Under the pieces are notes generated by a model. It saw nothing but the letters and a program-made list of their open reading frames with translations, was not told the origin of the DNA and did not search any database. From an uncultured Aquabacterium sp. (lineage in GTDB: Bacteria > Pseudomonadota > Gammaproteobacteria > Burkholderiales > Burkholderiaceae_C), in assembly GCF_947366995.1 (NCBI RefSeq), contig NZ_CANBCC010000001.1:1-64000 (forward strand): DNA of 64,000 nt, read 5' to 3'. Position 1 is the first letter of the stretch, and every line of letters begins with the position of its first letter. The position numbers and the translations under genes are program-made. Shown here piece by piece: positions 17,558 to 33,837 of the stretch.

Positions 17558-19852
17558 TCAGGCCGCGGTGTCGGCGTTGGGTGAGGGTGGCTCGGCATCC
17601 AGCAGGGCGTCCTGCTCGGCCTTGCGTGCCTGCGCCTCGTACAGGCGCCAGTAGGCCCCCTGGCGCGCCATCAGCTCGTCGTGCGGGCCGACTTCCACCA
17701 CCTGGCCGCGGTCCATCACCACCAGGCGATCGGCCTTGCGAAGCGTCGACAGGCGGTGCGCAATCGCAATCGTCGTGCGGCCCTTGACCAGGTTGTCCAG
17801 CGCGCGCTGGATTTCCTTCTCGGTTTCGGTGTCCACGGCCGATGTGGCCTCATCCAGGATCAGGATCTTCGGGTCGATCAGCAGGGCCCGCGCAATGCTG
17901 ATGCGCTGTCGTTCTCCGCCCGACAGGCCCTGGCCGCGTTCGCCCACCAGCGAGTCGTAGCCCTGCGGCAGGCGCAGGATGAACTCGTGCGCGTGCGCTG
18001 CACGGGCCGCGGCAATGATCTCGTCGCGCGTGGCGTGGGGTTTGCCGTAGGCGATGTTCTCTGCGATGGTGCCGAAGAACAGGAAGGGCTCCTGCAGCAC
18101 CAGGCCGATGTGGCGCCGGTAGTCGGCCACGGCAATGCGGCGGATGTCGACGCCATCGACCTTGATCGCGCCATCGCTGATGTCATAGAAGCGGCAGATC
18201 AGGTTGACCAGCGTGCTCTTGCCCGAGCCGGAATGGCCGACCAGGCCGATCATCTCGCCGGGCTGGATGTCGAGGCTGAGGTTGCGGATCACCGAGCGGC
18301 TGCCGTAGCGGAAGGCAATCTCTTCCATCGTGATGCGGCCCTGAAGCGCAGGCAGCTTCACCGGGTTGGCCGGTTCCGGCACGTTGGAGACGTGGTCGAG
18401 GATGTCGAAGATGCGCTTGGCGCCGGCCGCTGCCTTCTGCGTGACGGACACGATGCGGCTCATGGAGTCGAGCCGGCCGTAGAAGCGGCCGATGTAGGCG
18501 ATGAAGGCCGTGAGCACGCCCACCGTGATGTCGCTTTCCGACACCAGCCAGATGCCGAAGGCCCACACCACGAGCAGCCCGATCTCGGTCAGCAGCGACA
18601 CGGTGGGCGAAAACAGCGACCACGTCTTGTTGAGCTTGTCGTTGACCTGCAGGTTGTACTGGTTGGCCGCGCGGAAGCGGTTGGCCTCGCGCTGCTCCTG
18701 CGCAAAGGCCTTCACCACGCGAATGCCGGGGATGGTGTCGGCCAGCACGTTGGTGACCTCGCCCCACACGCGGTCGATCTTCTCGAAGCCCGTGCGCAGG
18801 CGGTCTCGCACCAGGTGGATCAGCCAGGCGATGAAGGGCAGCGGGACCAGTGTGACCAGGGCCAGCCAGGGGTTGATGGACACCAGGATGGCGGCGGTCA
18901 TCGCGATCATCAGCACGTCGGTGGCGAAATCGAGCGCGTGCAGCGACAGGAAGACGTTGATGCGGTCGGTTTCCGAGCCCACGCGGGTCATCAGGTCGCC
19001 GGTGCGCTTGCTGCCGAAGTAGTCGAGCGACAGGCGCAGCAGGTGCTCGTAGGTGGTGGTGCGCAGGTCGGCGCCGATGCGCTCGGACACCAGCGCGAGC
19101 AGGTAGGTGCGGGCCCAGCCCAGCGCCCACGCCACCAGCGCCGAGGCCAGCAGGCCGCTCAGCAGCAGCGTCACCAGGTCGCGGTCGATGGCCTGGCCGT
19201 TCTGGAAGGGGATGAGCACCTCGTCCATGAGCGGCATGGTCAGGTAGGGCGGCACCAGCGTGGCGGCGGTGGAGGCCAGCGTGAGCAGGAAGCCGGCCAG
19301 CAGCTTGCCCTGGTAGGGCCGCGCGAAGCGCCACAGGCGCAGCAGCACCCAGGTCGAGGGCGGCGTCTGCAGTTCGCGGTGGCACACCGGGCACTCGTCG
19401 CTGTCCGGGGGCAGCGGGGCCTTGCAGCTCGGGCACTGGGCCTTGTCCTCGTCCGGCGACACTTCGCCGGTGTGCAGGGTGGCCTGGCGCCGTTCGAACT
19501 GTTCGATCAGACGGACAACCTGGACCTGGTGCTCCAGCGTGAAGTGCCACTGGGCCAGTCGCCCCTGGGCGTTGAGCAGCTCCAGGGTGCCCACGCCGGC
19601 GTGATCGTGGTGCTGAAGCGCCAGATCCGGGGTCAGAGGCCACATTTCCCAGGGTGCCGAGGCCGCTTCGCGTGCGCCGAGACGCTGGTCAGTCAGGATA
19701 ATGGGCGACGTCTGGAAACGGAGTTGTGCGTTCAGGTCAACCTCAAGGCGACATAAAACGTTTTCTCCGGGAGCCAGCGGCCAGTCCGTGCTGGCAAGAT
19801 CTGTAACAGCCTGACGCCCCTGGGCGTCGTCAGCAGGATGGTGATGGTGCAT
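17558..19852 (-). CDS. ABC exporter with N-terminal zinc ribbon, cyanophycin-associated
   Basis: 764 residues. The N-terminal region (about 1-135) is a beta-rich domain followed by a zinc ribbon with CxxC...CxxC cysteines 140, 143, 154 and 157. Next comes a six-helix type IV exporter transmembrane domain (about 175-480) and a nucleotide-binding domain with Walker A GHSGSGKST, signature LSGGERQR, Walker B ILILDEATSA and switch His in IAHRLST. A single fused polypeptide, so it works as a homodimer. Relatives always sit beside cphA genes and DUF1854; the substrate is unknown. Start at 19852 (MHHHHPADD) gives 139 bp to the divergent cphA' start. Confidence 0.88.
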   Translation of the reverse strand: MHHHHPADDAQGRQAVTDLASTDWPLAPGENVLCRLEVDLNAQLRFQTSPIILTDQRLGAREAASAPWEMWPLTPDLALQHHDHAGVGTLELLNAQGRLAQWHFTLEHQVQVVRLIEQFERRQATLHTGEVSPDEDKAQCPSCKAPLPPDSDECPVCHRELQTPPSTWVLLRLWRFARPYQGKLLAGFLLTLASTAATLVPPYLTMPLMDEVLIPFQNGQAIDRDLVTLLLSGLLASALVAWALGWARTYLLALVSERIGADLRTTTYEHLLRLSLDYFGSKRTGDLMTRVGSETDRINVFLSLHALDFATDVLMIAMTAAILVSINPWLALVTLVPLPFIAWLIHLVRDRLRTGFEKIDRVWGEVTNVLADTIPGIRVVKAFAQEQREANRFRAANQYNLQVNDKLNKTWSLFSPTVSLLTEIGLLVVWAFGIWLVSESDITVGVLTAFIAYIGRFYGRLDSMSRIVSVTQKAAAGAKRIFDILDHVSNVPEPANPVKLPALQGRITMEEIAFRYGSRSVIRNLSLDIQPGEMIGLVGHSGSGKSTLVNLICRFYDISDGAIKVDGVDIRRIAVADYRRHIGLVLQEPFLFFGTIAENIAYGKPHATRDEIIAAARAAHAHEFILRLPQGYDSLVGERGQGLSGGERQRISIARALLIDPKILILDEATSAVDTETEKEIQRALDNLVKGRTTIAIAHRLSTLRKADRLVVMDRGQVVEVGPHDELMARQGAYWRLYEAQARKAEQDALLDAEPPSPNADTAA

Positions 19853-19991
19853 GTTGATCTGTGGGCCCGACGCGGGGGCCAGGCTTCGGCCCCTTGTGCG
19901 AGGTGTCGCATTTTGACCGAAGCAGCCCGCGCCATGTCGATCCGCCCGTCTTTCTGCCCGTCCACGCCCCGCCTGTGACCCTTGTCGCCCC

Positions 19992-22193
19992 ATGACCAAG
20001 AAGAACGACATCAAGCTCCTGCGCATCAATTACCTGCGCGGCCCCAACATCTGGACGTACCGCTCGGTGCTGGAGGTCTGGCTGGATCTGGGTGAACTGG
20101 AAGACTGCCCCTCGAACAAGTTGCCCGGCTTCAACGAACGGCTGACGGCCTGGCTGCCGGCGCTGATCGAGCACCACTGCGGCGTCGGGGAGCGGGGCGG
20201 TTTCCTGCAGCGGCTGCAGGAGGGCACCTGGTGCGGCCACGTGCTGGAGCACATCGTCATCGAACTGCTGAACCTGGCCGGCATGGCCACGGGCTTCGGC
20301 CAGACCCGCTCGACCAGCCAGCGCGGCGTCTACCGCATGGTGTTCCGCGCCCGTGACGAGCAGGTGGCCCGGGTGGCCCTGCAGCAAGGGCATGCGCTGA
20401 TCATGGCGGCCATCAACGACGAGCCCTTCGATGTGAAGGCGGCCGTCGAACTGGTGCGCGAGCAGATCGACGACTGCTACCTCGGCCCGTCGACCGCGGC
20501 GATCGTGAACGCCGCCACCGACCGCGGCATTCCGCACATCCGGCTCAACGAGGGCAATCTGGTGCAGCTGGGCTACGGGGCCGCGCAGCGCCGCATCTGG
20601 ACGGCCGAGACCGACAAGACCAGCGCGATCGCCGAAGGCATTGCCGGCAACAAGGACCTGACCAAGACCCTGCTGAAGGCCTGCGGCGTGCCCGTGCCGG
20701 AAGGCGAGGTGGTGGACAGCCCCGAGGCCGCGTGGGAAGCGGCAGAAGACATCGGCGTGCCGGTGGTGGTCAAGCCGCTGGACGGCAACCATGGCCGGGG
20801 CGTGTCGCTGGAGCTGACCGAGCGCGCCGACATCGAGGCCGCCTTCAAGGTGGCCGAGGCCGAGGGCAGCGACGTGATCGTCGAGCGCTTCATTCCCGGC
20901 GACGAGCACCGTGTGCTGGTCGTGGGCGGCAAGCTGGTGGCCGCGGCCCGGGGCGAGAGCCTCTGGATCATCGGCAACGGCCGCGACAAGGTCACCAGGC
21001 TGATCGACGACCAGCTCAACAGCGATCCGCGCCGCGGCGAGGCCGAGGAGTTCCCGCTCGAGACCATCGTGCTGGAGCGCGAACCCACCATGCGCCTGCT
21101 GCTGGAGCGCCAGGGCCTGAACGGTGAATCGGTGCCGTCCGAAGGCCAGCGCGTGCTGGTGCAGCGCAACGGCAACGTCGCCATCGACTGCACCGACGAC
21201 GTGCACCCCGATGTGGCCTACCAGTGCGGCCTGGCTGCGCGCGCCGTGGGCCTGGACATCGCGGGCATCGACCTGGTGGTGCAGGACATCTCCCAGCCGC
21301 TCGCGCCCCAGCGTGGCGCCATCGTGGAGGTGAATGCCGGCCCCGGCCTGCTGATGCACCTCAAGCCGGCCGAAGGCCTGCCGCGCCCGGTGGGCAAGGC
21401 GATTGCCGACCACCTGTTCGACGAGACGGAAACCGGCCGCGTGCCCATCGTCGGCGTGGCCGGCTCGGTGGGCACCAGCCACATTGCCCGCCTGATCGCG
21501 TGGCTGCTGCACCTGGGTGGGCGCCATGTGGGTCTGGCGTGCCGCGACGGCCTCTTTCTGGGTACCCGCCGCGTGGAGGGCAAGGACCGCGCTAACTTTG
21601 CAGCCGGTCAACGCCTGCTGATGAACCGCGAAGTCAACGCCGTGGTGCTGGAAAACGGCGCCGCCAGCATCCTGAACGACGGCCTGGCCTACGACCGCTG
21701 CACGGTGGGCGTGGTGACAGACCTGTTGGGTGCCGAGCCGCCCGTGGCACCGGCCCTGGCGGAGCACGACATCCGCGAGCCCGAGCAGATGTTCAAGGTG
21801 CTGCGCACGCAGATCGATGTGGTGCTGTCCGAGGGCGTCGGCGTGTTGAACGCCGCCCACCCGCAGCTGGTCGAGATGGCCGAGTTGTGCGATGGCGAAG
21901 TCATCCTCTACGACGTGGACCATGCCAGCCCGGTGCTGGCCGCGCACCGCGCCCAGGGCGGCCGCACGGTGGCCGTCGAGGGCCACCATCTGGTGCTGGC
22001 TCACAATGGCCAGGTGGCCGTGCGCTGTGCCGACCTGGACAGCGCGGCAGCACGCCGCCTGGTGGCCGCGGGTGAGTCGGGGGCCGGCGTCAGCTGGCTG
22101 CTGGCCGCCGTGGCCGCGGCCTGGGCCCTGGGCATTTCGCCGGAACTGATCAGCGCCGGGATCGAGACCTTCGACCCGACACCCAAACAATAA
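19992..22193 (+). CDS. cphA': Cyanophycin synthetase-like protein CphA' with degenerate Mur-ligase P-loop
   Basis: 733 residues, same overall layout as CphA: N-terminal domain (about 1-160), ATP-grasp domain (about 200-470), Mur-ligase-like domain (about 480-733). ATP-grasp signatures are intact (VVVKPLDGNHGRGVS, VERFIPGDEHRVLVVGG, AIVEVNAGPGLLMH). The Mur ATPase loop, normally GTNGKTT, reads G491-SVGTSH: Lys and both Thr are lost, so only the ATP-grasp (aspartate-adding) half should be active. The paired cphA' cphA arrangement is known from Cupriavidus necator. It lies 36 bp upstream of cphA in one operon. C-terminally shorter than CphA by about 125 residues. Confidence 0.9.
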   Translation: MTKKNDIKLLRINYLRGPNIWTYRSVLEVWLDLGELEDCPSNKLPGFNERLTAWLPALIEHHCGVGERGGFLQRLQEGTWCGHVLEHIVIELLNLAGMATGFGQTRSTSQRGVYRMVFRARDEQVARVALQQGHALIMAAINDEPFDVKAAVELVREQIDDCYLGPSTAAIVNAATDRGIPHIRLNEGNLVQLGYGAAQRRIWTAETDKTSAIAEGIAGNKDLTKTLLKACGVPVPEGEVVDSPEAAWEAAEDIGVPVVVKPLDGNHGRGVSLELTERADIEAAFKVAEAEGSDVIVERFIPGDEHRVLVVGGKLVAAARGESLWIIGNGRDKVTRLIDDQLNSDPRRGEAEEFPLETIVLEREPTMRLLLERQGLNGESVPSEGQRVLVQRNGNVAIDCTDDVHPDVAYQCGLAARAVGLDIAGIDLVVQDISQPLAPQRGAIVEVNAGPGLLMHLKPAEGLPRPVGKAIADHLFDETETGRVPIVGVAGSVGTSHIARLIAWLLHLGGRHVGLACRDGLFLGTRRVEGKDRANFAAGQRLLMNREVNAVVLENGAASILNDGLAYDRCTVGVVTDLLGAEPPVAPALAEHDIREPEQMFKVLRTQIDVVLSEGVGVLNAAHPQLVEMAELCDGEVILYDVDHASPVLAAHRAQGGRTVAVEGHHLVLAHNGQVAVRCADLDSAAARRLVAAGESGAGVSWLLAAVAAAWALGISPELISAGIETFDPTPKQ

Positions 22194-22229
22194 GAAAACG
22201 CAGGCCTTCGCGCTAACGAGAGACCCCTC

Positions 22230-24806
22230 ATGGACGTGTCCCGCATCCGGGCCCTGCGCGGCCCCAACCTCTGGAGCCGTCATACCGCCATCGAGGCGGT
22301 GGTGGCGTGTGAACCCGCAGAGCGCAACATCGATCAGCTGCAGGGCTTCGAAGCCCGGCTGCGCAAGCGCTTTCCGAGCATGGGGCCGCTGCGGCCCGAT
22401 GGCCGTCCGGGCCACATCGGCCTGGCCCACGTGCTGGAGACCGTCGCCCTGGCGCTGCAGGCTCAGGCCGGTTGCCCTGTCACCTTCAGCCGCACGGCGG
22501 AGACGGTCGAAGAAGGCATCTACCAGGTGATCGTCGAGTACAGCGAGGAGGTCGTCGGCAAGAAGGCCTTCGACCACGCCATCGCGCTGGTCGATGCCGC
22601 GCTGAAGGACACCGCGTTCGACGTGGACGCGGCGCTCGCCGAACTGCGCGAGCTGGATGAAGACGTGCGCCTGGGCCCCAGCACCGGTTCCATCGTGGAT
22701 GCGGCCGTGGCCCGGGGCATTCCCTATCGCCGCCTGACCCAGGGCAGCCTGGTGCAGTTCGGCTGGGGCAGCAAGCAGCGCCGCATCTGGGCGGCCGAGG
22801 TCGACAACACGAGCGCCGTCTCCGAATCGATCGCCCAGGACAAGGACCTGACCAAGCGCCTGCTGGCCGCAGCCGGTGTGCCGGTGCCCACGGGGCGTCC
22901 GGTGGTCGACTTTGAAGATGCGTGCAAGGTGGCCGAAGAAATCGGCTGGCCGGTGGTGGTCAAGCCGCGCGATGGCAACCAGGGCAAGGGCGTGACGGTC
23001 AACATCGTCAGCACCGAGCACCTGGAGATCGCCTACAAGGTCGCCGCCGAGTATGGCGAGGTGATGGTCGAGAGCTACTTGCCCGGCAACGACTTCCGTC
23101 TTCTGGTGGTGGGCGACCGTCTGGTGGCTGCGGCGCGCCGTGATCCGCCCCATGTGATTGGCGACGGCGTGCACACCGTGCGCGAGCTGGTGGCCAGGGT
23201 GAACGAAGACCCGCGCCGGGGTGACGGCCATGCCACCTCGCTGACCAAGATCCGCATCGACGAGATCGCCATTGCCCGCCTGCAGGTGCAGGGGCTGAGC
23301 CCCGACGATGTGCCGGAGCAGGGCCGTCGCGTCATCATGCGCAACAACGCCAACCTGTCGACCGGTGGCACCGCCACCGACGTGACGGACGACGTGCACC
23401 CTGAAGTCGCCGCCCGCGCGATTGCGGCCGCGCAGTGCATCGGGCTGGAGATCTGCGGGGTCGACGTGCTGGCCGAGAGCGTGCACCGCCCGCTCGAAGC
23501 CCAGAACGGCGGCATCGTGGAAGTGAACGCCGCACCCGGTCTGCGCATGCACCTGTCGCCGTCTTACGGCAAGGGCCGCAACGTGGGCGAGGCCGTGGTG
23601 GCCAACCTCTACAAGCCGGGTGACGATGGGCGCATCCCCATCGTGGCCGTGACCGGCACCAACGGCAAGACGACGACGGCGCGGCTGACTGCCCACCTGC
23701 TGGCCACGAGCGGGCTGCGTGTGGGCATGACCAACACCGACGGTGTGTACGTGAATGGCCGCCAGATCGACAGCGGCGACTGCTCGGGCCCCAAGAGTGC
23801 GCGCAATGTGCTGATGCACCCGGACGTCGACGCGGCGGTGTTCGAAACGGCGCGTGGCGGCATCCTGCGTGAAGGCCTGGGCTTCGACCGCTGCGGCACG
23901 GCTGTCGTCACCAACATCGGTGCGGGCGACCACCTGGGCCTGAACTACATCACCACCGTGGAAGATCTGGCGGTGCTCAAGCGCGTCATCGTGATGAACG
24001 TGGCGCCTGAGGGCTACGCGGTGCTGAACGCGGCCGACCCGATCGTGGTGGCGATGGCGCCCAAGTGCCCGGGCGGCATCATCTATTTTGCGCTCGATCC
24101 GCACAACCCCGTGCTGGCCGCGCACCGCGCGCAGGGCAAGCGCACGGTGTACGTTGATGGCGGCGCGGTGGTGGCCTCGGAAGGCAGCTGGCGCGAGACC
24201 CTGCCGCTGCGCGACATCCCGCTGACCCGCAATGGCACGATCGGCTTCCAGATCGAGAACGTGATGGCCTCGGTGGGCGCGGCCTGGAGTGCCGGCCTGG
24301 ACTGGGAAGTGATCCGAGCCGGTCTGGCCAGCTTCGTGAACGACTCGGACAACGCGCCCGGCCGCTTCAATGTGATGGACTACCGTGGCGCGACCGTGAT
24401 CGCCGACTACGGCCACAACCCGGATGCCATGAAGGCGCTGGTGGAGGCAGTCAACGCGATGCCGGCCAAGCGGCGCTCGGTCGTCATCAGCGGTGCGGGC
24501 GACCGCCGCGACGAGGACATCCGCGATCAGACTGCCATTCTGGGTGCGGCCTTCGATGATTTCATCCTCTTCCAGGACGCCTGTCAGCGTGGCCGCGAAG
24601 ACGGCGAGGTGCTGGCGCTGCTGCGTGCTGGCCTGAGCCAGGCTGCGCGTGCACAGCACGTCGAAGAGATCCGCGGTGAGTTCCTGGCCATCGACACGGC
24701 CCTGGCCCGTCTGCAGCCGGGCGACCTCTGCCTGGTGCTGGTCGACCAGGTGGAAGAGGCCCTGGCGCACCTGGCCAGGCGGTGCGCCGAATCGCCTGCT
24801 GGGTGA
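22230..24806 (+). CDS. cphA: Cyanophycin synthetase
   Basis: 858 residues. It polymerises cyanophycin, a poly-aspartate backbone with arginine side chains, using ATP. Domains: N-terminal (about 1-160), ATP-grasp that adds Asp (about 215-465; VVVKPRDGNQGKGVT, EVNAAPGLRMH), and Mur-ligase-like domain that adds Arg (about 470-858) with intact P-loop GTNGKTTT (476-483) and GYGHNPDAM-type C-terminal segment (IADYGHNPDAMKAL). All motifs needed for both reactions are present, unlike the upstream cphA'. No cyanophycinase or isoaspartyl dipeptidase gene is seen in the window. modB starts 19 bp downstream. Confidence 0.95.
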   Translation: MDVSRIRALRGPNLWSRHTAIEAVVACEPAERNIDQLQGFEARLRKRFPSMGPLRPDGRPGHIGLAHVLETVALALQAQAGCPVTFSRTAETVEEGIYQVIVEYSEEVVGKKAFDHAIALVDAALKDTAFDVDAALAELRELDEDVRLGPSTGSIVDAAVARGIPYRRLTQGSLVQFGWGSKQRRIWAAEVDNTSAVSESIAQDKDLTKRLLAAAGVPVPTGRPVVDFEDACKVAEEIGWPVVVKPRDGNQGKGVTVNIVSTEHLEIAYKVAAEYGEVMVESYLPGNDFRLLVVGDRLVAAARRDPPHVIGDGVHTVRELVARVNEDPRRGDGHATSLTKIRIDEIAIARLQVQGLSPDDVPEQGRRVIMRNNANLSTGGTATDVTDDVHPEVAARAIAAAQCIGLEICGVDVLAESVHRPLEAQNGGIVEVNAAPGLRMHLSPSYGKGRNVGEAVVANLYKPGDDGRIPIVAVTGTNGKTTTARLTAHLLATSGLRVGMTNTDGVYVNGRQIDSGDCSGPKSARNVLMHPDVDAAVFETARGGILREGLGFDRCGTAVVTNIGAGDHLGLNYITTVEDLAVLKRVIVMNVAPEGYAVLNAADPIVVAMAPKCPGGIIYFALDPHNPVLAAHRAQGKRTVYVDGGAVVASEGSWRETLPLRDIPLTRNGTIGFQIENVMASVGAAWSAGLDWEVIRAGLASFVNDSDNAPGRFNVMDYRGATVIADYGHNPDAMKALVEAVNAMPAKRRSVVISGAGDRRDEDIRDQTAILGAAFDDFILFQDACQRGREDGEVLALLRAGLSQAARAQHVEEIRGEFLAIDTALARLQPGDLCLVLVDQVEEALAHLARRCAESPAG

Positions 24807-24825
24807 TGGCGGTACCGGCGTCGGC

Positions 24826-25524
24826 ATGAGCGTGCTGTCGCACGACGACATTCAGGCGCTGGTGCTGACGGCCGAACTGGCCGGCATCACCACGCTGGCG
24901 CTGCTCGTCATCGGCACGCCGATCGCCTGGTGGCTGGCGCACACGCGTTCGATGCTCAAGGGGCCGGTGGCCGCGGTGGTGGCACTGCCGTTGGTGCTGC
25001 CACCCACGGTGCTGGGCTTCTACCTGCTGTTGCTGCTGGGCCCGAATGGCCCGGTGGGGCAGGCGATGCAGGCCATGGGCTGGGCGCTGCTGCCCTTCAC
25101 CTTTCCGGGCCTGGTGGTGGCCTCGGTGCTGCACTCGCTTCCTTTCGTGGTGCAGCCCCTTCATCAGGCGTTCGAGGCCATGGGCCGGCGTCCGCTGGAG
25201 GTGGCCGCCACGCTGCGCGCCGGGCCATGGGATCGCTTCCTGAGCGTCGCGTTGCCCCTGGCGCGTCCCGGGTTCCTCACGGCGGCGGTGCTCGGCTTTG
25301 CGCACACCGTGGGCGAGTTCGGCGTCGTGCTGATGATCGGCGGCAACATCCCCGGCGCCACGCGCGTGCTGTCGATTTCGCTGTATGGCCATGTCGAGGC
25401 CAACGAACTCCAGCAGGCCCATGTGCTGGCCGGCGGCATGGTGCTGTTCGGCTTTGCCGTCATGTGGCTGCTGTACCTGGTGTCCGGACGCAGCCTGCTG
25501 GGCGGAGGGGCTCGCCGTGCATGA
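24826..25524 (+). CDS. modB: Molybdate ABC transporter permease
   Basis: 232 residues, five to six membrane segments, the usual ModB length. Signature segments are LPLVLPPTVLGFYLLLLLG near the N-terminus and the EAA loop EVAATLRAGPWDRFLSVALPLARPG, followed by HTVGEFGVVLMIGGNIPG typical of molybdate/tungstate permeases. The ATG at 24826 has no clear SD, so translation may depend on the cphA gene ending 19 bp before. It overlaps modC by 8 bp. No modA (binding protein) is encoded next to it, which is unusual for a mod operon. Confidence 0.9.
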   Translation: MSVLSHDDIQALVLTAELAGITTLALLVIGTPIAWWLAHTRSMLKGPVAAVVALPLVLPPTVLGFYLLLLLGPNGPVGQAMQAMGWALLPFTFPGLVVASVLHSLPFVVQPLHQAFEAMGRRPLEVAATLRAGPWDRFLSVALPLARPGFLTAAVLGFAHTVGEFGVVLMIGGNIPGATRVLSISLYGHVEANELQQAHVLAGGMVLFGFAVMWLLYLVSGRSLLGGGARRA

Positions 25525-27358: not shown

Positions 27359-27985
27359 ATGTCCTCTTCTGCCTTGCCCTCCGCGCCCCTTGCCCGCTTT
27401 GGTCCCTGGTGGCCCGGCGTCGCGGTTCTTGTTCTGATGTGCACGGTGCTGCTGGCCAGCGGGATCACCGTCGACAACGTGCGTGCGGCCATCCGTGCCA
27501 CCGCGCGCCTGTCGCTGGTGTGCTTCTGCCTGGCGTATGCGGCCAGCGCGCTCTGGCAGGTCCGGCCCACACCGCTGTCGGCCTGGCTTCGACGGCATCG
27601 CCGTCAGTGGGGGTTGCTGTTCGTGGCCTCGCACACGGTGCACCTCGTGTTCATCGGGATGCTGCGCCTTCTGGACCCAGCCCTGTTTGCCAGCCTGGTG
27701 CCGGCGGCCACCCTGGTCTCCGGCACGTTGGCTTATGCCGTGCTGTGGGCAATGGGCCTGTCCTCCAACGATCGGGTGGCCGCGCGCATGGGTGCGCCGG
27801 CTTGGCGGCGTCTGCATACCTGGGGCAGCCATTACCTGTGGCTCAGCTTTGCCGTGGCCTATGGCAAGCGGGTCCCGCTCGATGCGGTCTATGCCCTGCC
27901 GTTCGCGCTCCTGCTGGTGGTGCTGGGCCTGCGGCTGGGATGCGCCCTCAGGCGCCCTTCGTCATCAGTTCCTTCACGGCCTTGA
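27359..27985 (+). CDS. Ferric-reductase-like transmembrane protein (heme b candidate)
   Basis: 208 residues with six predicted membrane segments. Histidines in the third segment (ASHTVH) and in the loop/helix RRLHTWGSHYLW have the spacing of the ferric_reduct/MsrQ-type domain that holds b hemes. No FAD/NAD-binding domain follows, so, like MsrQ, it would need a partner for electron supply. SD AGGAG lies 8 nt before ATG 27359. Divergent from the TetR gene. Its 3' end overlaps the convergent cNMP-binding gene by 38 bp. Physiological role unknown. Confidence 0.75.
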   Translation: MSSSALPSAPLARFGPWWPGVAVLVLMCTVLLASGITVDNVRAAIRATARLSLVCFCLAYAASALWQVRPTPLSAWLRRHRRQWGLLFVASHTVHLVFIGMLRLLDPALFASLVPAATLVSGTLAYAVLWAMGLSSNDRVAARMGAPAWRRLHTWGSHYLWLSFAVAYGKRVPLDAVYALPFALLLVVLGLRLGCALRRPSSSVPSRP

Positions 27986-29129
27986 TGATGGCACCGCCGA
28001 TCTGCTGTACCTCGATCGGGTCCACCGGCTTCATGTCCTTCAGGTCGCTTTCGATTTCTTCCCGCTTGCTACGCGACAGGGAGGCCACGATCTTCTGCCT
28101 GACGGCCTCTTCGCTGATGGACGAGAGGAGCTTGGCCAGTTCGAAGGTGTCGAACTTCGACACGACGGCAAAGACGGTCTTCTGATCGGCGAACTCGATG
28201 TCGAGGATGTCGGTGAACTCGTCCGGCGTCTTGATCTTGCGCTCGGCAAAGAAGCGGCGGCCCTTCTCGTCGAGCAGACGCATGATCTCGGTCTTGCGGA
28301 AGGTGAAAACGTCGTCGGAGAAGTCGCCGCCCGCGAGCTTGCGCAGCAACACCGGGCGTTCCACATCCACCATCGCGGCGAACTCGTCCACGCTGATGTA
28401 TTCGTAGCTCAGCTTGTCGGCGTCGTTGGCGGTGCTGTCCGTCACCTTGCGGGCCTGGCTGACGATGTCGCGCGGCGAGAACAGCACCCGCTTGCCCGTG
28501 CCCTTTTCGTCTTCGATGCGGATGAGGTGGAGGTTCAGCAGCTTGGCCAGGCAGGTGCGGATGTGCTTGTCCGAGTGGGCAAACATGATGCGCGCATTCA
28601 TCACGACGTCCTGCAGCAGCGGGCTGGCGAGCGCCTGCTTGCCGGCGGCCTCGGCCTTCACGACCGCCTGCTTGCCGATGTCGGCGATGCCCAGCAGGTA
28701 GAGCAGTTGCGCGTAGATCAGGATGTCGGGCTGGTAGTTGACGCGCGTGGCGATCAATTCGTGTGCGGCCGAGAGACGGTCCGACAGGGTGTGCAGCACG
28801 CTGCGCGCGAGTTCCGGCGTGGCCTGCACATGGGGCTCGATCGACTGGTTGTCGACCAGGTAGAGCTCGCAGTACGTGCGCGCCGCCGCATTGTTGATGC
28901 GCCGACCCTTGGGCAAGTGCGGCGTCATGCCGAAGCACTGACCGCGGCTCAGCGTCTCGACCACCACGCGCTTTTCCTCGCGCACCATGTAGATGTCGAC
29001 CTCGCCCTCCTTGATCACGTACATGTGCGTGCCGGGCATGCCTTCCGTGTAGAGCACGTCCCCGGCGAAGGCGCGCATCTGAGAGAAATTGCCTTTCTCG
29101 GCAAACCGGAGGAGGGAGCTGGCGTGCAT
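27948..29129 (-). CDS. Cyclic nucleotide-binding domain / FliG C-terminal domain fusion protein
   Basis: 393 residues, no signal peptide or membrane segment. Residues about 15-115 form a cNMP-binding (Crp-like) beta-barrel (GDVLYTEGMPGTHMYVIKEG, GQCFGMTPHL); the phosphate cassette lacks the usual Glu after FG, so the ligand is uncertain. The middle (about 165-235) looks like a winged-helix region. Residues about 314-393 resemble the FliG C-terminal domain: residues 339-375 align without gaps to E. coli FliG, sharing the R.K, S, DL and PV...V positions. FliG_C is the rotor part that contacts MotA. No flagellar gene is nearby. The start ATG 29129 is followed at once by the barrel. Divergent from modD (240 bp between them). 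Confidence 0.75.
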   Translation of the reverse strand: MHASSLLRFAEKGNFSQMRAFAGDVLYTEGMPGTHMYVIKEGEVDIYMVREEKRVVVETLSRGQCFGMTPHLPKGRRINNAAARTYCELYLVDNQSIEPHVQATPELARSVLHTLSDRLSAAHELIATRVNYQPDILIYAQLLYLLGIADIGKQAVVKAEAAGKQALASPLLQDVVMNARIMFAHSDKHIRTCLAKLLNLHLIRIEDEKGTGKRVLFSPRDIVSQARKVTDSTANDADKLSYEYISVDEFAAMVDVERPVLLRKLAGGDFSDDVFTFRKTEIMRLLDEKGRRFFAERKIKTPDEFTDILDIEFADQKTVFAVVSKFDTFELAKLLSSISEEAVRQKIVASLSRSKREEIESDLKDMKPVDPIEVQQIGGAIIKAVKELMTKGA

Positions 29130-30249: not shown

Positions 30250-30930
30250 TCAGGCGGCCTGACGACGCGCGCGGCGCATCACGCTGGCGACACCCATCAC
30301 ACCCAGCCCGGCGAGGGCCAGCAGGTGCTCGGACGGCTCGGGCACCGGGGCAGCTTGCAGCACGAAGGACAGGTTGTCGGCGTAGCCGTCGTTGTCGCCG
30401 CCCGACAGGCGCTCCATCGACAGCGAGAACATCACCGACATCGTGCCCACGGGCAGCAGACCGCTGTTTTCGCGGAAGAACAGGCCCGATTGGTTGTTGC
30501 GGTCGGCTGGCATCAAGGGGCCGAGTGCGGCGTGGCCGATCTCGGTCGAGGTGCTGTCCAGGAACGAGACGTACAGCAGCGCGTTGTCTTGCTGCGCCAG
30601 CCAGCCGCCCAGCCAGCCGCTCAGCGAGTACTGCAGGGGCTGACCCGACAGCGAACCCAGCTCGACCAACTGATACCCCGCGCTCTGCGCGCCGACACCA
30701 GCGAACATCTTGCTGCCGCGGTCTGCGGGGCCGGGCTGGGTCGGCAGGACCCAGTTGCTGCCGTAAGACACGGACTGGAAGAGGTCGTGGCCGTCGAACA
30801 GCTCCCAGCCGGCCGTGCCGGACTCGGCATCGCCGTTGACGATGAGGTTGCTGCCCAGTGTGGCGGCGGCCTGCGCGCTGAAGGCGGTGGCCAGCAGGCT
30901 GGCCAGGAAGAGGTGCTTGAAGTGCTTCAT
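30250..30930 (-). CDS. PEP-CTERM sorted exported protein
   Basis: 226 residues: signal peptide (ends SAQAA), a beta-rich central domain beginning LIVNGDAESGTAGWE, a pattern often seen in carbohydrate-binding-like PEP-CTERM proteins, and a C-terminal VPEPS motif followed by a hydrophobic helix and RRARR tail. That tripartite tail directs cleavage by exosortase, which must be encoded elsewhere. Such proteins are secreted to the surface or extracellular matrix. The gene lies 23 bp downstream of the phospholipase C gene on the same strand, a possible operon. Function unknown. Confidence 0.85.
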   Translation of the reverse strand: MKHFKHLFLASLLATAFSAQAAATLGSNLIVNGDAESGTAGWELFDGHDLFQSVSYGSNWVLPTQPGPADRGSKMFAGVGAQSAGYQLVELGSLSGQPLQYSLSGWLGGWLAQQDNALLYVSFLDSTSTEIGHAALGPLMPADRNNQSGLFFRENSGLLPVGTMSVMFSLSMERLSGGDNDGYADNLSFVLQAAPVPEPSEHLLALAGLGVMGVASVMRRARRQAA

Positions 30931-30953: not shown

Positions 30954-33140
30954 TCAGACCGTGTATTGATCGAGGATGGCGATGCCGCCCATGGCCGGGT
31001 CGCTGACCGAGGGCGCGCCCGTTTCCAAGTGGCCGGCAAAGCGGCGGCTCCAGCCCGCCAGCTGCGGCACGCGCACGCTGAGGTCGTACCAGCAGTGGTC
31101 AGGCAGCGGGCGGCGCAGCGTGTGGGTGCCGCGTGCGGGCACCGTCACCTCCTGGGCCGCGCCGTCTTCATAGCGCAGCGTGCGCAGGCTGAAGGTGGCG
31201 GGCACGGTGCCGTCGTTGCGCAGGGTGACGACGAGCTCGGCGTTGGTCCGGTCGCTGGACACCGTCACCGAAGGCACCGGCACGGCGGCGCTGGCGCCCG
31301 GCACCGTGCCTGTGACGTGGCGGTGCCAGCCGTTCGGGCCGAGGATCCACAGGTCGTATGGGTTGCCCGGGGTCACCACCCAACGGTCTTCGAGGTGACG
31401 GCCCGGCTCGACCGTGTAGCGGCGGGGCACCTCGGTCAGTGCGCGGCGGTTGTAGACATGGAAGACGGCACCGGCTTCGCCATGGTTCTCGAAGCGCAGC
31501 GTCACGCCCTGGTTGTTGACCGTGGCGTGGGCCTGCAGGTCGTAGGGCAGCGCGCGGGCCGGGCGCACGCCGCGGTCCTGCTCGGGGGCGATCAGCGTGG
31601 TGGGCGTGGCCGGTGTCTTGGTGCTCGGCAGGGCCAGGGCGCGCAGTCGGCGGGTCTCGGTGGCCGGCAAGGCGTTCACGAAGGCGCTGTCCTCCGGGTT
31701 GGCGAAGTCGAAGCAGCTGGTCAGGTCGCCGCTCACCGTGCGTCGCCACGCGGAGATCATCGGTTCGGCCACACCGAATCGCGCTTCGATGAAGCGGATC
31801 ACCGAGGTGTGGTCTGCCACCTGTGAGTTCACCCAGCCGCCCTTGGTCCACGGCGAGACCACGTACATCGGCACGCGGGGGCCGAAGCCGTAAGGCCGAT
31901 GGTGGTATTGCGGATCGGAGCCGTTGAGGTGATGGTGGTACTCGCCGGTGGTGTCGACGGTCGAGGCGCCCGCCAGCCGCGCCTGGGCCGGGTCGGCGTG
32001 GTAGCTCAGATAAGAGGGCGGTGCCGGCGGCGGCATGTGGTCGAAGAACCCGTCGTTCTCATCGAAGTTGATGATCAGGACCGTCTTGCTCCAGACCTCG
32101 GGGTTGGCCGTCAGGGCGTCCAGCACCCGGGCGGTGTAGTCGGCGCCCTGTGCCGGGCTGGAGGGACCCGGGTGCTCCGAGCCTTCGGCCGTGGCGACGA
32201 TCCAGCTCACCTGCGGCAGGCGGTTGGCCAGCACGTCGGCCTTCAGCATGTCGAGGTCGCGCGTGCTGACGCCGCGGTCACGCAGGGCCTGCGAGTAACC
32301 GGGGCGCATGTACCAGGCGTCGCGGAAGGCGCGGAAGCCTGCCAGCGAGTTGTCGGTGAAGTTGTCGGCCATGTTCTGGTAGACCTGCCAGCTCACGCCC
32401 GCATCCTGCAGCCGCTCGGCGTAGGTCATCCAGGTGTAGTCGGTGGTGGGGTCCGAGTTGAACCAGTCGTGGCTGTTGTCCGTCGAGGGGCCGCCATCGC
32501 GCGCCAGCGGGTCGTTGTGCGCCGTCCAGAGGAAGAGACGGTTGGTGTTCGTGCCGGTCTGCGTGGCGCAGTGGTAGTGGTCGCACAGCGTGAAGGCGCG
32601 TGCCAGGGCGAACTGGAAGGGCAGGTCGCTTTCCTTGAAGTAGCCCAGCGAATGGTTCTGTTTGGCCTTGGGCCAGTTGTTCATGCGGCCGTGGTCCCAG
32701 GCGGCCTGGGCATCCGTCCACGAGTGCGGCGTGCCGGACACGCGCATCACCGAGAAGTCCTGCTCGGTGTTGAGGTGGAAGGGGGCGATCGCGGCGCGGT
32801 TGCTGCCCCAGTTCGGGCGGCCGGGCACAGGGGCGCCACCACCAATGGGCTGCACGAAGACCGATTTGCGCGCGAAGGTGCCCACGCGGTCGACGACAGG
32901 CACCGGGAACGGGTCACCGAAGCCGCGCACGCCGGCCAGGGTGCCGAAGTAGTGGTCGAACGAGCGGTTTTCCTGCGTGAGGATCACGATGTGCTCGACA
33001 TCGTGGATCGTACCCGTGCGCTGATTGGCCGGGATGGCCAGGGCGCGCTGGATGGCAGGCGGAAAGCTGGCAAGGGCGGCACTGGCGCCGACGGCCGAGC
33101 CGATGTTGCGCAGAAAACTGCGGCGGTCTTGCTGATTCAT
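30954..33140 (-). CDS. Phosphocholine-specific phospholipase C, Tat-exported
   Basis: 728 residues. The twin-arginine signal (DRRSFLRNIGSAVGASAAL) directs folded export through the Tat pathway, whose genes are also in this window. The catalytic phosphoesterase domain (about 45-500) opens with HIVILTQENRSFDHYFG, containing the metal-binding Asn/His motif of the PLC/acid phosphatase superfamily, and includes INFDENDGFFDH. Two C-terminal DUF756-type beta domains follow. It would release phosphocholine from phosphatidylcholine or sphingomyelin. Length and architecture match PlcN/PlcH-type enzymes; haemolytic activity cannot be judged. No lipase chaperone gene is adjacent. Confidence 0.93.
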   Translation of the reverse strand: MNQQDRRSFLRNIGSAVGASAALASFPPAIQRALAIPANQRTGTIHDVEHIVILTQENRSFDHYFGTLAGVRGFGDPFPVPVVDRVGTFARKSVFVQPIGGGAPVPGRPNWGSNRAAIAPFHLNTEQDFSVMRVSGTPHSWTDAQAAWDHGRMNNWPKAKQNHSLGYFKESDLPFQFALARAFTLCDHYHCATQTGTNTNRLFLWTAHNDPLARDGGPSTDNSHDWFNSDPTTDYTWMTYAERLQDAGVSWQVYQNMADNFTDNSLAGFRAFRDAWYMRPGYSQALRDRGVSTRDLDMLKADVLANRLPQVSWIVATAEGSEHPGPSSPAQGADYTARVLDALTANPEVWSKTVLIINFDENDGFFDHMPPPAPPSYLSYHADPAQARLAGASTVDTTGEYHHHLNGSDPQYHHRPYGFGPRVPMYVVSPWTKGGWVNSQVADHTSVIRFIEARFGVAEPMISAWRRTVSGDLTSCFDFANPEDSAFVNALPATETRRLRALALPSTKTPATPTTLIAPEQDRGVRPARALPYDLQAHATVNNQGVTLRFENHGEAGAVFHVYNRRALTEVPRRYTVEPGRHLEDRWVVTPGNPYDLWILGPNGWHRHVTGTVPGASAAVPVPSVTVSSDRTNAELVVTLRNDGTVPATFSLRTLRYEDGAAQEVTVPARGTHTLRRPLPDHCWYDLSVRVPQLAGWSRRFAGHLETGAPSVSDPAMGGIAILDQYTV

Positions 33141-33282: not shown

Positions 33283-33837
33283 TCAGGCAGCGGCCGCCAG
33301 ACGACGGCGCTGGCGCCAGCACACCGCGCCCAGGCCAGCGACGGCGAGGGCAATGCTGCCCGGTTCGGGCACCGGGGTGGTCAACGTGATGTTGCCCGCC
33401 CAGTGAACGTAGTTCTCGACCGGGATGTTCAGCTCTTCGTACAGGCCTGTGAGCGTGAGACCCGAGAGGGTGCCGCTCAACCGGGCGGCCGTCCCATCGA
33501 AGAGTGAGGGATAGGCGATGTCGATCTGAACGGCGCTCCCCGGAGCGTCCGGCCCGATCGCCGTGATGACGCCCGTGTAATCGTCGCCGATCGCATCCGG
33601 CACGTCCACGCTCACCGTGCCGTAGGTGCCCCCGACCAGTCCGGTCACCACCAGGGTGACGGCCGCACTGAACGGATCACCTTCCACCTTGGTCTCACCG
33701 TCGTACCAGTCGGTGATGTTCCAGGTTCCGGTCCAGGTGCCCTGAAGGTCGGCGGCCGTGACGGCATGGGCATTGAATGCGGCGGCCACGCCCAGCGCGG
33801 CCAGGCTGGTGCGAGCCAGCTTGGAGACAAGCGTCAT
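33283..33837 (-). CDS. PEP-CTERM sorted exported protein
   Basis: 184 residues. Signal peptide (ends NAHA), a beta-sandwich-like domain beginning LQGTWTGTWNITDWYDGE, and a C-terminal VPEPG motif, hydrophobic helix and RQRRR tail recognised by exosortase. No catalytic motif is visible. It lies 142 bp upstream of the phospholipase gene on the same strand. It shares no obvious sequence with the other two PEP-CTERM proteins in the window outside the sorting tail. Confidence 0.85.
   Translation of the reverse strand: MTLVSKLARTSLAALGVAAAFNAHAVTAADLQGTWTGTWNITDWYDGETKVEGDPFSAAVTLVVTGLVGGTYGTVSVDVPDAIGDDYTGVITAIGPDAPGSAVQIDIAYPSLFDGTAARLSGTLSGLTLTGLYEELNIPVENYVHWAGNITLTTPVPEPGSIALAVAGLGAVCWRQRRRLAAAA

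Follow-up and report, generated by a model that had tools for sequence, protein, structure and literature searches.

A cyclic-nucleotide-type barrel joined to a FliG C-terminal domain in an uncultured Aquabacterium: orphan member of a candidate stator-adaptor family

What would a soluble protein with a ligand-sensing domain do with a copy of the domain by which the flagellar rotor protein FliG meets the stator? The question is raised by a gene in a 64,000-nucleotide stretch of DNA from an uncultured Aquabacterium sp. (positions 1 to 64,000 of contig NZ_CANBCC010000001.1, assembly GCF_947366995.1; hereafter the window). An initial annotation, made from the letters alone, described its product as a Crp-type cyclic nucleotide barrel fused to a FliG C-terminal-like domain (FliG_C), which could compete for motor interactions or use the fold elsewhere. 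The observation was confirmed, and this first interpretation proved partly right. We call the protein, composed of barrel, middle region and FliG_C, the adaptor. One branch of its relatives combines a complete MotA-MotB stator pair downstream, a sigma28-like promoter, FliG-bearing hosts and a canonical nucleotide-binding cassette. We read the protein as belonging to a family of soluble adaptors that bind stators and serve an accessory stator of the flagellum, the window gene forming part of an orphan branch, and judge this reading to be evenly balanced between right and wrong.

Only two Pfam families scored above their cut-offs in the window protein: cNMP_binding (PF00027; 55.6 bits, cut-off 27.5) and, at residues 307-392, FliG_C (PF01706; E-value 1.7e-9, 38.3 bits, cut-off 23.3). 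The predicted structure of the C-terminal region has the six-helix FliG C-terminal fold and not another, and a Pfam search, a PDB sequence-profile search and a fold comparison each ranked FliG first for this region. The domain is thus homologous to FliG_C and shares its fold. The full-length FliG model of NCBIfam matched weakly, over this C-terminal stretch only (E-value 0.014, 14.8 bits, cut-off 226.7), as expected if the shared part is the last domain only. FliG_N and FliG_M, the domains that join FliF and FliM, did not reach their Pfam cut-offs in the window protein, and at the family level gave weak matches (FliG_M in 3 of 10, best 0.008; FliG_N in 1 of 10, 0.036). With no convincing FliG_N or FliG_M, a seat in the C-ring as a FliG subunit is unlikely. 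The true FliG of the window genome is encoded elsewhere, on contig 69, and the window gene is the only other FliG_C match in that genome (E-value <=10). A chance resemblance to a helical repeat of the MgtE_N or ARM-like kind, of which weak further MgtE_N matches (0.13 in the window protein; 2 of the 37 operon-type relatives described below) might be a hint, was refuted by the structure and profile searches that ranked FliG first, and is hardly credible.

In a survey of the architecture in Burkholderiales, full-length relatives turned up in 5 of the 200 genomes sampled from the window's family (the source genome of the window among them), on five named contigs, and in 58 of 249 from a second family of the order, that of genome G478, which we take for Burkholderiaceae because relatives on plasmids lie close to its copies. 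Eight plasmid or megaplasmid records of Burkholderia, Paraburkholderia and Caballeronia also carried one, as did 2 of 300 genomes in a wider sample of the order and 2 of 398 in a sample of the phylum. In a tree, the proteins split at support 100/99 into two groups parted by a long branch: a solo group of nine proteins, including the window protein, and an operon group, represented by 14 proteins. Two long-branched proteins, from genomes G161 and G902, are not counted here. Residues were compared over a larger operon set of 37 rows (30 loci, six plasmid records and genome G052), which are related and partly redundant. Ratios of nonsynonymous to synonymous substitution rates in four pairs per group, with synonymous rates partly saturated, were about 0.06-0.15 for the operon group and 0.12-0.57 for the solo group, which suggests that both are under purifying selection.

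The two uncounted relatives differ in kind. In G161, a gene after a chaperonin-family gene (locus L108, 11419-12318) encodes a 299-amino-acid protein with barrel and middle region, no FliG_C match and no MotAB call, which could represent either an ancestral, barrel-only state or a truncation. In G902, a diverged member with 37% identity to the operon type (locus L107, 8929-10083) stands without MotAB, after a sigma54-type regulator with a VpsR domain.

The partners of the operon branch are stator genes. On a plasmid of Paraburkholderia PGU19 the annotated order is chemoreceptor, adaptor, 'flagellar motor protein' and OmpA family protein, of which the last two are MotA (MotA_N and MotA_ExbB domains) and MotB (MotB_plug and OmpA domains). 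MotA and MotB lie directly downstream of the adaptor gene in 30 of 30 loci, taken from the 30 best-scoring of the 58 adaptor genomes, and by coordinates MotA is the next gene on the same strand, after a gap of 24-186 nucleotides, in 57 of the 58, G902 being the only one without MotAB. The association is reciprocal: operon MotA, searched against the same 249 genomes (E-value <=1e-18), matched in 60, namely the 57 adaptor carriers (all at E-value <=1e-100), genomes G995 and G1083, and G1091, which has a fragment. The window's family also holds one operon copy, in G052.

Some loci vary on this arrangement. In G871, outside the 30 loci, MotA and MotB are separated by a hydrolase-like gene. G995 (locus L129) and G1083 (C1:1085881-1086666) are small genomes with no adaptor match and a distant MotA, 38% and 35% identical to operon MotA, respectively; the former is followed by MotB, and the match in the latter crosses stops. 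The gene upstream of the G052 operon (locus L106, 12284-14710) encodes a GAF-GGDEF-EAL protein, so cyclic di-GMP may also touch that system. A chemoreceptor-family gene was found within the roughly 20-kb stretch of 6 of the 13 loci of the operon set (L023, L026, L027, L028, L112 and L114; the 13 include L107 and L108, both without MotAB), often adjoining adaptor-MotAB.

Judged by its key residues, the operon stator looks functional. Its MotA has E98, P173, T209 and P222 (E. coli numbering) in all 37 rows and keeps the charge at the R90 position, as lysine, in all 37, and the MotB motif SYxD is likewise present in 37/37. The nearest solved stators to operon MotA are 9lu9 (3e-47), 6ysl (3e-37) and PomA (about 3e-35), and both operon MotA and MotB match chains of the stator structure 8UCS. 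In a tree, operon MotA stands very far from the 14 flagellar MotA rows and E. coli MotA with which it was compared. This distance, and the fact that the complete stator pair comes with a FliG_C partner of its own, would suit a flagellum-independent motor, in which MotA5B2 turns or pulls the soluble FliG_C protein and transmits force to a non-flagellar target. We consider such a motor distinctly unlikely, since the operons have sigma28-like promoters and the torque charges of FliG are replaced in their adaptors, and since flagellar FliG is present in all carriers but one, whose operon is decayed; a decayed remnant in a genome that has FliG weakens the argument from decay, as set out below.

The promoter-like site, T(A/C)AAG-N14/15-GNCGWWA, lies at -105 to -138 upstream of the adaptor gene in 36 of 37 operons; the G052 operon has no such site upstream, and G902, which has no MotAB, has one at -113. 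Among 15 chosen carrier genomes, a like site stands at -115 to -128 in all 19 flagellin upstream regions that were read, and in none of those of 11 genes of carrier genomes that we take to be FlgL-like from their first residues. Two further flagellin matches came without a locus and are not among the 19. The more telling argument for the promoter is that sequence and position alike agree with the flagellin genes; the promoter score was reached by 0.63% of 20,000 random 120-nucleotide windows of the operon loci. Flagellar FliG (E-value <=1e-20) was found in 57 of 58 adaptor genomes versus 134 of 191 others (Fisher p 7e-7, uncorrected for phylogeny). The only carrier without FliG, G1095, has its adaptor frame in two pieces and MotB in pieces as well. 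The decayed remnant in G1091 sits in a FliG-bearing genome, so decay of the operon is not limited to genomes without FliG.

Several results weigh against an adaptor for a flagellar stator. The promoter scorer was written after the operon sites had been viewed, so the figure of 0.63% is not an unbiased test; when sites were scored by the E. coli consensus against shuffles of each sequence, only 9 of 37 operons reached p<=0.05, and a pattern sought genome-wide in G478 was not enriched (5 versus 13 in a reversed control). The operon rows are related, not independent, and phylogeny confounds the FliG association: of the 58 genomes that lack FliG, the 20 listed are all <=2.8 Mb. Likeness to FliG_C is lower in the very branch that has the stator. 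Seven operon domains scored 18-26 bits, above the Pfam cut-off in only 3 of 7 genomes or records, and eight solo domains scored 30-41 bits. A family profile of nine solo proteins and one operon protein matched the FliG_C chain of 8UCS (0.031), as did the structure model of the window protein, whereas an operon-only profile did not and had FliG 1qc7 as its best PDB match (E-value 0.089). Profile-profile comparison with 11 flagellar FliGs was weak, giving probabilities of 6% for the operon and 20% for the solo type. The window's lineage, for its part, has neither MotA/MotB beside its genes (0 of nine loci) nor a sigma28-like site (0 of 9, the window gene included).

The residues that face MotA are the last such point. 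Contacts between MotA and FliG, as given in the cited passages of PMC12505986, pair R90 with D288-D289 and E98 with R281. At positions 264, 281, 288, 289 and 297 the 11 flagellar FliGs have K, R, D/E, D/E and R/K, and the 37 operon proteins have A/G/Q, A/T/S, W/K, V/L/I and D/N, with D288 replaced by W in 36 of 37. The window protein has S, S, S, D and D, keeping D289 only; K264 and R297, which we take to be further MotA-pairing charges, are gone. Across the nine solo proteins position 289 alone stays acidic (D in seven, E in two), and R281 is present in three. The replacement of most torque charges speaks against a simple rotor mimic: the adaptor may bind MotA by other contacts without torque transfer, or else bind something other than MotA. 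The operon MotA keeps its own charges, as expected if it also meets real FliG.

The mechanism that we propose takes these substitutions into account. The structure 8UCS is a MotA5B2 stator with FliG_C bound, indicating, in the cited passages of PMC11302681, that FliG_C can occupy a stator when the other domains of FliG are absent. The adaptor's FliG_C would dock on the MotA ring in the same manner, and the barrel, by binding or releasing a cyclic nucleotide, would decide between holding the accessory stator off, engaging it and delivering it to the flagellar motor. Because most torque charges are replaced, the adaptor would act as a cap or brake and not as a rotor: bound, but transmitting no torque. 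The earlier suggestion of competition for motor interactions thus gains from the position of the relatives' genes ahead of motA-motB and from the binding of MotAB by FliG_C alone in 8UCS, and loses from the MotA-facing charges, which are mostly gone. A more specific form, which we offer tentatively, is a stator clutch: an accessory stator would bring its own charge-stripped, soluble FliG_C as a 'dummy rotor' that stays on the MotA ring for as long as the nucleotide signal is unchanged; of this system the window's lineage would retain nothing but the dummy rotor, now directed at the main flagellar stator. Should the window protein still act on a motor, the candidate partner is the single flagellar-type MotA found in the same genome; this is the weakest step.

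For the barrel, the two branches differ. The G-E and P-R positions of the phosphate-binding cassette mark a working cyclic-nucleotide pocket, and the cassette FGE-N7-PRxxTA is present in all 37 operon barrels. In the window barrel the glutamate is replaced by M and the arginine is kept; all nine solo barrels have M, L, I or V in place of the glutamate, and eight of them retain the arginine. Operon barrels therefore probably bind a nucleotide; for the solo branch such binding is doubtful, and with it the ligand sensing first attributed to the window protein, the retained arginine notwithstanding. A CRP-type barrel could also belong to a transcription regulator whose FliG_C is an effector-binding tail that reports the state of the stator or motor to gene expression. 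The middle region of the relatives gave scattered weak Pfam matches only, a few of them to helix-turn-helix families (Penicillinase_R in 2 of 37, HTH_17 in 1 of 10) and none confident, and the structure model of this region is of low confidence; we regard a regulator of this kind as very unlikely.

What, then, is the window gene itself? The substitution patterns that suggest purifying selection make it look like a maintained orphan, not a wreck. Its lineage may have left motors and put the FliG_C fold to another use, as a protein-protein domain in a signalling or regulatory protein, which we think rather unlikely. The missing stator genes and promoter would be accounted for, as would the loss of the cassette glutamate, the long branch between the clades and the finding that no neighbour family is common to more than three of the nine solo loci. 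Yet the solo domains score nearer to true FliG than the operon domains do, and position 289 is acidic in all nine. Flagellar FliG is present in 7 of 8 solo genomes examined (the exception is a metagenome-assembled genome, G859), but as 148 of 200 genomes of the family have FliG anyway, this count says little.

The surroundings of the gene (Table 1) agree with the initial annotation, which saw no flagellar gene nearby: no motor-related gene is among the neighbours in the window. These comprise a cyanophycin-synthetase-like gene, transporter genes (by our reading of molybdate type), a TetR regulator, a QRPTase (by our reading ModD-like), PEP-CTERM-like proteins, a phospholipase C and one protein without a Pfam match. 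A long open frame antisense to the cyanophycin-synthetase-like gene is probably a shadow frame of high-GC coding sequence.

Table 1. Coordinates of the adaptor gene, its domains and other features of the window
Feature	Position	Strand	Extent or basis
Adaptor gene: cNMP-binding barrel, middle region and FliG_C domain	27948..29129	-	one gene, 393 amino acids (codons 27951-29129)
Cyclic-nucleotide-binding barrel, residues 22-98	28836..29066	-	Pfam PF00027, E-value 5.4e-15; cassette comparison
Middle region, residues 128-300	28230..28748	-	mostly helical in low-confidence model
FliG C-terminal domain, residues 304-393, six helices	27951..28220	-	Pfam PF01706; fold of model
PEP-CTERM-like protein	30250-30930	-	PEP-CTERM-like end by eye only; flanks phospholipase C gene
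Phospholipase C gene	30954-33140		
PEP-CTERM-like protein	33283-33837	-	PEP-CTERM-like end by Pfam; flanks phospholipase C gene
Cyanophycin-synthetase-like gene	22230-24806	+	
Antisense open frame	19830-24851	-	1673 codons, opposite the cyanophycin-synthetase-like gene and the stretch preceding it

Known soluble proteins that regulate the contact between stator and rotor are YcgR/FlgZ, EpsE and MotI; they are directed at the motor, are not FliG_C proteins and, to our knowledge, do not come with stator genes of their own. The adaptor shares with FliG a homologous C-terminal domain and differs in having a CRP-type barrel where FliG has FliG_N and FliG_M, and in its mostly replaced MotA-facing charges. 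The chains of 8UCS are matched by operon MotA, MotB and the family's FliG_C, but that structure was obtained with an engineered MotA-FliG fusion, whereas here FliG_C is part of a natural sensor protein. Pseudomonas, with MotAB and MotCD, likewise has a second stator set in a flagellated bacterium; the cited passages of PMC9765564 describe no adaptor gene and do not name FliG (0 occurrences). Generic ion transporters (cited passages of PMC12505986) and Zorya ZorAB are also MotAB-like ion-driven units outside the flagellar core, but operon MotA resembles solved flagellar stators and its operon has a flagellar-type promoter. In the one open-access library searched, we found no description of the adaptor architecture, of the operon or of a like regulator.

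A natural FliG_C-on-sensor protein encoded ahead of motAB points to an undescribed way of controlling the motor. If the proposal is correct, bacteria would gate the stator powering of the flagellum by a natural soluble copy of the rotor's docking domain coupled to a cyclic-nucleotide sensor, directly linking cAMP- or cGMP-type signals to the motor. The adaptor would then be a natural tool for blocking or tagging stators, and a function could be assigned to an unnamed gene found ahead of motAB in many Burkholderia-type genomes.
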